A stretch of DNA of 57,781 nucleotides, taken from the NCBI GenBank assembly GCA_015494155.1, contig WGBU01000047.1, forward strand, positions 1-57,781. The letters are read 5' to 3'. Shown piece after piece: positions 14,247-41,964 of this stretch. Positions within the stretch are counted from its first letter, which is position 1. Every line of letters begins with the position of its first letter. The notes beneath the pieces were generated by a model. The model was not told where the DNA came from. It searched no databases and saw nothing but the letters and a program-made list of their open reading frames with translations. Made by a program: the position numbers and the translations under genes. The DNA comes from Deltaproteobacteria bacterium (GTDB taxonomy: Bacteria; Desulfobacterota; Dissulfuribacteria; Dissulfuribacterales; Dissulfuribacteraceae).

Positions 14247-15563
14247 ATGTTTACATGTGCCCTCTTGGGATATGGGACTGTGGGTACTGGGGTCTATAGA
14301 CTTCTTGTGGAAAAGAAGCAGGAGATCCAGCGACGTATTGGTGTGGATGTCGTCATCAAGTGGGTATTTGACAGGGGCTTTAGGAGGACCAAGGAATTCC
14401 CACTCCCAGAAGGGGTGATGACCCGTGACCCAGAGGTCATATTCAATGACCCAGACGTAGACTGCGTGATCGAGCTCATCGGTGGTCTCGAACCTGCAAA
14501 AAGCTATATCCTAAAGGCCATTCGTGCAAAAAAGCATGTAGTCACTGCAAACAAGGCGGTCCTCTCCCATTCTGGACCAGAGATTTGGACCAGTGCCTAC
14601 GAAAACCTTGTGGCCATTGGTTTTGAAGCCAGCGTGGGCGGCGGCATTCCAGTCATAAAGACAGTGAGAGAGTCTCTTGTGGCAAACGACGTCTCGTCCA
14701 TTGTGGGGATCATGAATGGCACATCCAATTACATCCTCTCCAAGATGACCAAAGAGGGGAGCGAATACGCCCACACCCTAGAGGATGCCCAAAGACTCGG
14801 GTACGCCGAGGCAGACCCCACCTTTGACGTGGAGGGCTTCGATGCCGCACATAAGCTCACCATCTTGGCCATGTTGACTTTTGGCCAACCCTTTTCTTCA
14901 GAAGACGTCTATACCGAGGGGATCACCCAAATCACCCCCTTGGACATAGAATTTGCAAGAGAATTTGGCTACAGGATAAAACTACTTGCCATAGGGGACA
15001 AAGGGCCACAGGGTGTGATGTTGAGGGTCCATCCCACCATGGTGCCCGAGACCCATCTATTGGCCCAGGTTGACGGTGCCTACAATGCATTTTATTTTGT
15101 TGGAGATGAGGTGGGAAAACTGATCCTCTTCGGAATGGGGGCAGGCCAGGGCCCAACAGCCAGTGCAGTAGTAGCTGATATTGTGGACATTGCTAGAATG
15201 ACCAGGGAAAGAGCAACTACCTCTATGCCCTTTGCACCCAATTTCACTCTGGACAAAAGTGCTACAACCATCCCTAAGATCCCGGTAACGTCCCTTGTCT
15301 CTAGGTATTACTTCAGGATCAGCGCACTGGACCGTCCTGGGGTGCTTGCAAAGATAGGAGGGGTGTTGGGAGAACATGACATCAGCATAGAGTCTGTAGT
15401 ACAGAAGGGAAGGGGCAAAAAGGACGCAGTACCAATCGTCATGCTCACCCACGAGGCCCTGGAACAGAATGTGAGATCAGCCCTTTCAATAATTGATTCC
15501 CTTGAGATAACCATGGACAAGACCGTGGTCATAAGGTTGGCAGACTTGTCCAACGTGGGATAG
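14247..15563 (+). CDS. hom: homoserine dehydrogenase
   Basis: This enzyme reduces aspartate semialdehyde to homoserine (threonine/methionine pathway). At 438 residues it is the monofunctional, ACT-containing type. The NAD(P) motif LLGYGTVGTGVYRLL is at the N-terminus. Family motifs include TANKAVLSHSG, FEASVGGGIPVIKTVRESL, GIMNGTSNYILSKM and YAEADPTFDVEGFDAAHK. The C-terminal ACT domain (YYFRISALDRPGVLAKIGGVLGEH...) suggests threonine feedback. ATG 14247 is used (AAGGGAAG upstream) rather than TTG 14241. The next gene, 25 bases on, is probably the homoserine kinase. Confidence 0.95.
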   Translation: MFTCALLGYGTVGTGVYRLLVEKKQEIQRRIGVDVVIKWVFDRGFRRTKEFPLPEGVMTRDPEVIFNDPDVDCVIELIGGLEPAKSYILKAIRAKKHVVTANKAVLSHSGPEIWTSAYENLVAIGFEASVGGGIPVIKTVRESLVANDVSSIVGIMNGTSNYILSKMTKEGSEYAHTLEDAQRLGYAEADPTFDVEGFDAAHKLTILAMLTFGQPFSSEDVYTEGITQITPLDIEFAREFGYRIKLLAIGDKGPQGVMLRVHPTMVPETHLLAQVDGAYNAFYFVGDEVGKLILFGMGAGQGPTASAVVADIVDIARMTRERATTSMPFAPNFTLDKSATTIPKIPVTSLVSRYYFRISALDRPGVLAKIGGVLGEHDISIESVVQKGRGKKDAVPIVMLTHEALEQNVRSALSIIDSLEITMDKTVVIRLADLSNVG

Positions 15564-41100: not shown

Positions 41101-41297
41101 GGGCGGAGGCGCTCCAAACGGAACATGGTCTCGCCTTTTCCTCCGTGCTCCGCTCGGCCGGCCTAGTCGGCCTCCATGCCGACAAGGCCGGGGCGTGCGT
41201 CCATGCACGCCCCCTCACTCCCTTCGGGAGTTCGGGCCTTTTTCGCTTTGCACTCCGGAGCTCGACCAAACCGTTCCTTATTGGAGCCGCCCCCGCC
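41101..41297 (+). repeat. 197-bp structured palindromic repeat, copy A
   Basis: The ends are imperfect inverted repeats: GGGCGGAGGCGCTCCAA opens it, and the reverse complement of its end begins GGCGGGGGCGGCTCCAAT. Inside are three successive hairpins. H1 (41158-41191) has stems CCGGCC and GTCGGC, split by TA/AA, with loop CTCCAT. H2 (41192-41211) has stem GGCGTGC and loop GTCCAT. H3 (41217-41231) has stem ACTCCC. A T-run follows H3. The copy at 41576-41772 has the same length in inverted orientation with no indel between the two. It could act as RNA or single-stranded DNA. No transposase is nearby. Confidence 0.88.
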
Positions 41298-41400
41298 TTG
41301 CTCCTTTACCCATTGCTTTTTTTCTTGTTTGTACATTCACTTTTGGGCAAACCGCTATCCTCCCAGGACATGAGATAACGGACAAAAATAGAAAATGAAA

Positions 41401-41540
41401 GGGCAAGGTTGAGCCTCTTTAAAGCGGGCTCTAGGGCAATCATTTACGATCACAAAACCGTCTGAACTCCTCAGTTCCTCTTCCACTCCCTGGTCTATGA
41501 CAAACCTTCTAGTAACCAGCCATGATTTTCGTTTTTAAAG
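41401..41540 (-). pseudogene. decayed fragment of a paralogue of the AAA+ gene at 46130-48385
   Basis: The minus strand reads KNENHGW, then after a deletion and frameshift RFVIDQGVEEELRSSDGFVI. The AAA+ protein has ENENHGWFMVHQ..., FVIDQGVEEELRDSDGFVII and then DD at residues about 100-160. DNA similarity is obvious between 41447-41538 and roughly 47960-48095, apart from about 50 missing bases. The end also keeps a diverged version of the PTLKRLSPK segment. No start, Walker motifs or complete domain remain. It lies between the two inverted 197-bp repeats, so it may have been carried in, or captured, with them. Confidence 0.8.
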
Positions 41541-41575
41541 GCTGATAGGGGCGTCAGGATTTTCGGCCTTGCAGA

Positions 41576-41772
41576 GGGCGGAGGCGCCTCCAATAAGGAA
41601 CGGTTTGGTCGAGCCCGGAGTGCGTAACGAAAAAAGCCCGAGGCCCTTAAAGGGCCGAGGGTGCGCACATGGATGTGCGCACCGCCCTTGTGTGCATGGA
41701 CGCACACTAGGGCGGCTAAGTGGAGCACGGAGGAAAAAGCGAGACCATGTTCCGTTTGGAGCGCCTCCGCCC
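41576..41772 (-). repeat. 197-bp structured palindromic repeat, copy B (inverted)
   Basis: This is the same element as 41101-41297 on the opposite strand. The outer 50 bases are almost identical to copy A. Hairpins lie at 41715-41682 (stems CCGCCC and GTGTGC, loop GTCCAT), 41681-41662 (stem TGCGCAC, loop ATCCAT) and 41656-41642 (stem GGCCC). The stem sequences differ from copy A but remain fully paired, while the loop CCAT and the TA/AA internal loop are kept. This copy has better-matched ends than A. Confidence 0.88.
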
Positions 41773-41805
41773 AAAAGGCTTGGCAGATGAACATTCACTA
41801 AAGCC

Positions 41806-41964
41806 CTAGTTTAGTGCATTTAGATTCTCTTCCACGACCCCAAAAAACACTTCAAAAACATCATGGGTAAAGGCCACTCCAGGGGACAATCTATAGACCT
41901 TGGCCACGCTCTTGAGCGAGAAGGAGCAGTAGCGAAGACTCCAGCGATTGGACCGGCTCTATCT
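41806..41964 (-). pseudogene. possible C-terminal coding vestige
   Basis: One minus-strand frame without a start reads about 50 residues, including SLKSVAKVYRLSPGVAFTHD and VFEVFFGVVEENLNALN, and ends at a TAG (41808-41806). The composition looks protein-like, but it is preceded by a stop and no family is recognised. It could be the tail of a decayed gene next to repeat B, or chance. Confidence 0.3.

Follow-up and report, generated by a model that had tools for sequence, protein, structure and literature searches.

Inward-facing pairs of MITE-like palindromic repeats with candidate CsrA sites in Dissulfuribacterales and other bacteria

REP and REPIN sequences are inverted pairs of hairpin elements whose stems carry compensatory changes. 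MITEs are short, non-coding, dispersed sequences with terminal inverted arms and strong secondary structure, which lie between genes and often 3' of them (PMC10969869); the same review makes no mention of CsrA. The consensus for CsrA binding is RUACARGGAUGU, with GGA placed within a loop, (PMC4347634), and RNAs that sequester the protein carry several GGA hairpin-loop motifs near it. The TwoAYGGAY RNA (Rfam RF01731) was predicted by Gardner and Eldai to bind CsrA (PMC4333381). Here, we describe a pair of elements that has traits in common with each of these systems, found in a 57,781-nucleotide stretch of Dissulfuribacterales DNA (contig WGBU01000047.1; hereafter the window).

Copy A (41101..41297, plus strand, which defines the A orientation) and copy B (41576..41772, minus strand) are the left and the inverted right member of an inward pair, with covariance-model scores of 181.6 bits (A, 100% self match) and 183.8 bits (B, 83% identity to A). 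The 278-bp spacer between them (41298..41575) holds no recognised gene, and in some other pairs genes sit there. The 3' end of a decayed ZnuA-like gene (41797..41925, minus strand) abuts the outer end of B. Each copy folds into a long outer stem enclosing three inner hairpins, with z-scores of -6.75 (A) and -9.97 (B), and 0/200 shuffles folded equally well. In A, H1 (41158..41191) has the loop CTCCAT at 41172-41177 on the plus strand (ATGGAG on the minus strand), H2 (41190..41213) has GTCCAT at 41199-41204 (ATGGAC on the minus strand), and H3 (41217..41231) has a UUCG-type loop and, after the hairpin, a T run on the plus strand. In B, the order is H3 (41642..41656), H2 (41660..41683, plus strand, loop ATGGAT in the context ACATGGATGT), and H1 (41682..41715, plus strand, loop ATGGAC). 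Re-examination of the sequence agrees with the limits of A and B proposed in a first-pass annotation and with all the stem differences and retained pairings that it listed for H1, H2, and H3. Its end-to-end alignment of the copies does run over the full length but is not gap-free, as copy A has one extra base near 41262, which opens one 1-nt gap; its common loop CCAT is better written NTCCAT (ANGGAN on the opposite strand); and its TA/AA internal loop of H1 is in fact a single A-A mismatch beside a T-A pair. Two things had been overlooked: the pair forms an insertion unit, and its loops take the form of CsrA sites.

A and B are members of a dispersed repeat family present in several bacterial groups. 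BLAST and covariance-model searches, as the first-pass annotation had proposed, found further copies in the same genome and in related ones. The own genome holds two more full copies on contig C186 (13120-13316, plus strand, and 14784-14979, minus strand), again an inward pair, 1.5 kb apart, and additionally one element fragment. On that contig, a further ZnuA-like fragment and a longer ZnuA-like reading frame adjoin element copies (L006, 12862-13059 and 17128-17790, minus strand), as if the ZnuA-like gene end had travelled or recombined with the elements. The sister genus (G002) gave 15 BLAST matches, truncated copies among them. A covariance model trained on 12 copies (R1) picked up diverged copies in a further seven genomes of the order (G011, G004, G020, G023, G025, G035, and G043), and its carriers were restricted to this order in a 395-genome sample of the phylum under strict filters. 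The same model also matched the element core in Luteimonas (E 4e-6). A broader model (R2), built partly from Luteimonas copies, found 18, 16, 8, 5, and 2 copies in Luteimonas/Lysobacter genomes and 15 in a Methylococcaceae genome. The element structure is kept across phyla. Two other repeats occur around the G002 copies: a separate AT-rich palindrome (GTTTTGAGTGTTGAGTTTTGAGTT...) interrupts several of them (L014, L017, L018, L019), and a repeat with CTTGACACCG ends, which holds a TTGACA promoter-like hexamer, encloses or adjoins several (L097, L098, L099, L100).

The pairing of A and B is part of a wider tendency. Among neighbouring elements in the fetched DNA, a count in which elements detected by covariance model in the order are pooled with AT-hairpin elements found elsewhere (see below), 19 pairs faced inward, 6 were direct, and 1 was outward (p 4e-7 against one quarter); Luteimonas and Methylococcaceae added more inward pairs and one outward case. 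Relatives that have no element between the same flanking genes were found for the window locus and for two sites of a related genus. The gap between the HK and TusA genes measures 1185 bp in the window versus about 190 bp, free of elements, in G002. In G023, one pair sits between convergent genes whose ends are no more than about 15 bp apart in G010, G033, and G037, and the second G023 site is likewise free of elements in these three genomes. Therefore, the pair behaves as one inserted unit, the flanking genes being adjacent where the element is absent. We read this absence as probable insertion in the carriers rather than loss from the relatives. At the second G023 site, the cargo is a secreted-protein gene in G023 and G020 and an Mrr endonuclease gene in G035, whereas the inner borders beside the elements are conserved between G035 and G023; thus, the cargo has been exchanged or replaced. 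The cargo of other pairs is a type ISP restriction enzyme or a PEP-CTERM/DUF3466 protein; in G025, an AAA-ATPase with PDDEXK_9 lies within a direct pair. Toxin-antitoxin-like and other accessory genes, recognised by eye, adjoin further elements (L079 7664-8375, L088 1565-2260, L090 3470-3859, L086 1147-1527), and the inner-side DNA of some single elements differs between sister species.

A mobile unit is supported by the number and dispersal of the copies, by their covarying structure, by the tendency to pair inward, and by relatives in which neither end is present at the corresponding site. Very probably, A and B terminate a single inserted unit, which belongs to a non-autonomous, MITE-like repeat family. 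Like ERIC, Correia, QMITE, and other MITEs, the element is small, non-coding, and dispersed, and has terminal inverted arms. Unlike them, it is built with a multi-branched palindrome at each end and occurs as an inward pair able to enclose genes. No consistent target-site duplication was found at the boundaries of L108 and L077 or in the DNA flanking other copies. The first-pass annotation saw no transposase in the window pair; none is there, and none was recognised inside the inward pairs examined. With REP/REPIN sequences, the elements have in common the inverted pairing of hairpin elements with compensatory changes; they differ in size, being about 200 bp each versus about 25. A REP/RAYT system was rejected as their source: no element adjoins any Y1 transposase gene, and Y1 genes were not found in G023, G025, G035, and G043, each of which carries several elements. 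Phage or plasmid origin was also rejected: neither collection gave a match, and just one viral contig bore the AT hairpin.

That AT-rich hairpin (GTTCNTTTCTTTTG..CAAAAGAAANGAACCAAAGAAAA) opens each element of genus g11, often a few bases past a stop codon. It occurs in at least 119 stretches of public genomes, from Bacteroidota, Gamma- and Betaproteobacteria, Thermotoga, Aquificaceae, Propionigenium, and others, whose inner parts differ and which at times form inward pairs. This repeat of many phyla looks like a large repeat class, for which we know of no name. The twin TCC/GGA hairpins occur in a subset, i.e., Xanthomonadaceae, Methylococcaceae, this order, and, by hairpin search, one Selenomonadaceae copy, and model R2 found no copies in 13 other genomes bearing the AT hairpin. 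A second common inner motif like AACTCGCTGCGCTCAAACA replaces the twin TCC hairpins in AT-hairpin repeats (L124-L242, e.g., L126, L214, L229, L140). The window copies do not have the AT hairpin and share the inner core alone; therefore, common descent of the whole unit is no more than a possibility for them.

The stems covary strongly. Over the 12 copies, 97.0% of pair cells hold standard pairs, both sides changed in 22 of the 48 pairs (1-5 in slid controls), and the covariation score was 0.362 against 0.030-0.068 for slid structures, a value reached by 0/500 shuffles. The first-pass annotation had named a lack of further copies and of significant covariation as an outcome that would speak against it; further copies and strong covariation both exist, so that outcome did not arise. 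Its conclusion that a folded RNA or single-stranded DNA is under selection stands less firmly, as other readings fit the same stems. Over 40 distinct hairpins, the 395 pairs of H1 and H2 comprised 378 Watson-Crick pairs, 2 G-U, 0 A-C, and 15 mismatches, nearly all of which are the conserved H1 mismatch. A tRNA control gave 3 G-U in 71 pairs, too small a sample to carry weight. Such Watson-Crick purity is unusual for an RNA helix. It is consistent with a constraint acting on the two DNA strands alike or with template switching that copies one arm to repair the other. Hairpins almost devoid of G-U pairs make maintenance of a palindrome at the DNA level as plausible as selection on RNA.

Template switching during DNA replication can yield two-sided changes and is documented for hairpins (PMC8794818). 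Therefore, with stems of near-pure Watson-Crick pairing, we do not take covariation alone as proof of RNA function. Could mutation alone, with template switching between the palindrome arms and no selection on folding, keep the stems perfect? In H1 and H2 of the 12 copies, one-sided standard-pair (G-U) intermediates are absent and changes are two-sided only, as such a mechanism would leave them. However, closely similar copies mostly show one-sided changes. Moreover, the TCC loops keep one orientation over three groups, though template switching can also invert spacers, and the Xanthomonadaceae set has no GGA loop in the A orientation. We regard mutation alone as unlikely; it would be compatible with the mobile unit with a CsrA link that we favour or with a role in DNA only (see below). 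A polarity of strands, read from G-U versus A-C changes, was dropped because the strand tests conflict. RNAalifold counted about 3 GU versus 10 AC changes in the window's family, the outer stems of 45 copies leaned the opposite way, and close copy pairs were mixed. Folding energy favoured the GGA strand in the window's family and not in g11, and was strand-neutral overall.

A search for A.GGA-type loops within closed stems returned 70 loops, every one of which a C-G pair closes (C[A-N-GGA-N]G or C[AGGAY]G), on freely varying stems; 37 were ATGGAT, 18 ATGGAC, and the remainder variants. Exceptions are one H2 subtype in genus g11, with the loop GACGAUU instead of ANGGAN, and one G011 copy (L082) that has no GGA in H2. 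In the window, both main hairpins, H1 and H2, show CsrA-type loops on one strand, namely the strand that leads away from the spacer (minus in A, plus in B). H2 of B (ACATGGATGT) differs from the core consensus ACARGGAUGU at a single base, having U at the R position, and its GGA motif is spaced 24 nt from the other one in B. Twin C[ANGGAN]G loops would have a form suited to one CsrA dimer. csrA was present in 12/12 carrier genomes tested, a co-occurrence that counts for little, since csrA is widespread in these groups. In several GGA hairpin-loop motifs near consensus and a host csrA, the elements agree with RNAs known to sequester CsrA. Paired GGA hairpin loops and CsrA-encoding genomes are also the traits in common with CsrB/RsmZ-type small RNAs; those are promoter-driven single genes, whereas the elements are dispersed multi-copy repeats known from DNA alone.

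The closest described RNA is TwoAYGGAY, which, like the window element, consists of two adjacent AYGGAY-type hairpins, the second stem longer, inside an outer stem, and is a proposed CsrA binder (PMC4333381). AYGGAY loops are present in both hairpins of B (ATGGAT and ATGGAC); in A, ATGGAC is accompanied by ATGGAG, which departs at one base. Unlike TwoAYGGAY, the window element has a third hairpin and long defined arms; its dispersed inward-pair habit may be a further difference. The first-pass annotation had recognised no known family, and the whole window has no match at the Rfam thresholds; still, the core is a sub-threshold relative of TwoAYGGAY (41658..41717, plus strand, E 0.002), scoring 35.6 bits against a gathering threshold of 43, with related copies at 35.3-38.7. 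HEARO and omega RNAs, which had been put forward for comparison, gave no match to an Rfam model. Rfam matches to microRNA families were dismissed as chance, mostly falling on a separate AT-rich palindrome. In the same order, a different element with two hairpins and no H3 (G009:C25:12900-13021, minus strand, L022) has a single TwoAYGGAY match of 44.3 bits, above the threshold.

Our best explanation joins the mobile unit to CsrA. Each end is a multi-branched palindrome whose long outer stem closes H1, H2, and H3; the two ends face inward around a spacer that is empty, as in the window, or holds unrelated genes. The unit would enter intergenic gaps, mostly at the 3' ends of genes, moved by an enzyme supplied in trans that reads the folded ends. 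On transcription of the outward-reading strand, H1 and H2 would present two C[ANGGAN]G loops to CsrA, and the element RNA, or an mRNA carrying the element, would bind CsrA, so that either CsrA is titrated or the fate of the RNA comes under its control. For this CsrA part, which may hold on the basis of motif form, motif conservation, and co-occurrence with csrA, we see the chances as even, and the explanation as a whole is likewise evenly poised. Against the CsrA part are a promoter scan that found no convincing strong promoter reading into the elements, an antisense GGA strand, and the few G-U pairs, which fit a constraint on DNA better than one on RNA. In many copies, the GGA strand runs antisense to the nearest gene, since the elements often sit immediately downstream of the 3' end of an oppositely oriented gene. 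The H2 loop exceptions, and the failure to find a target duplication or a transposase, also count against the explanation.

The main rival is a DNA-only role in transposition, in which single-stranded or cruciform hairpin ends are recognised by a transposase or recombinase reading the loop bases (TCC/GGA), with no role for RNA and an accidental likeness to CsrA sites. The paired ends, insertion units, and cargo would all follow from it, as would stems that are near-pure Watson-Crick on both strands (2 GU and 0 AC of 395) and strand-neutral folding energies overall. Yet the conserved loop and its closing C-G pair match a CsrA site at fixed bases, usually twice per element. Furthermore, AT-hairpin repeats of Bacteroidota and Betaproteobacteria pair inward although most of them have no twin loops; thus, the loops are not required for pairing in general. 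We hold the DNA-only role to be a serious possibility, of somewhat lower probability than the mobile unit with a CsrA link.

The location of the copies raises another reading, i.e., that the element is a 3'-end RNA structure of the upstream gene, a terminator or mRNA stabiliser as proposed for some REP/MITE insertions, with the A strand functional and H3 plus its T run acting as terminator. Many g11 copies do begin a few bases past a stop codon in the same direction, and H3 often has a UUCG-type loop and then a T run. However, a terminator scan found no intrinsic terminator in A or B, the orientation preference across phyla is modest (71 co-directional versus 53 anti upstream), and the conserved TCC loops would be left unexplained. 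This reading is very unlikely.

Taken as MITE-like repeats, a known kind, the elements would bring a candidate link to CsrA: no earlier report joining CsrA with MITEs or repeats was found among the open papers listed, and a literature search by sequence string returned nothing. Tentatively, and with more doubt than confidence, we suggest a broader picture, in which paired structured mobile repeats in several phyla move accessory genes, including defence genes, conserved twin CsrA sites tie the element or its cargo to the global regulator of the host, and TwoAYGGAY offers a partial view of that class. If CsrA does bind the loops, this repeat family would spread sites for a global regulator through genomes and would offer candidate sponge RNAs for CsrA networks outside Gammaproteobacteria. 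If it does not, the family would clearly exemplify strong covariation in the absence of any RNA function, and would call for caution in the discovery of RNA families. Either way, inward pairs with exchangeable cargo would represent a route by which restriction and accessory genes enter the chromosome with no obvious transposase.
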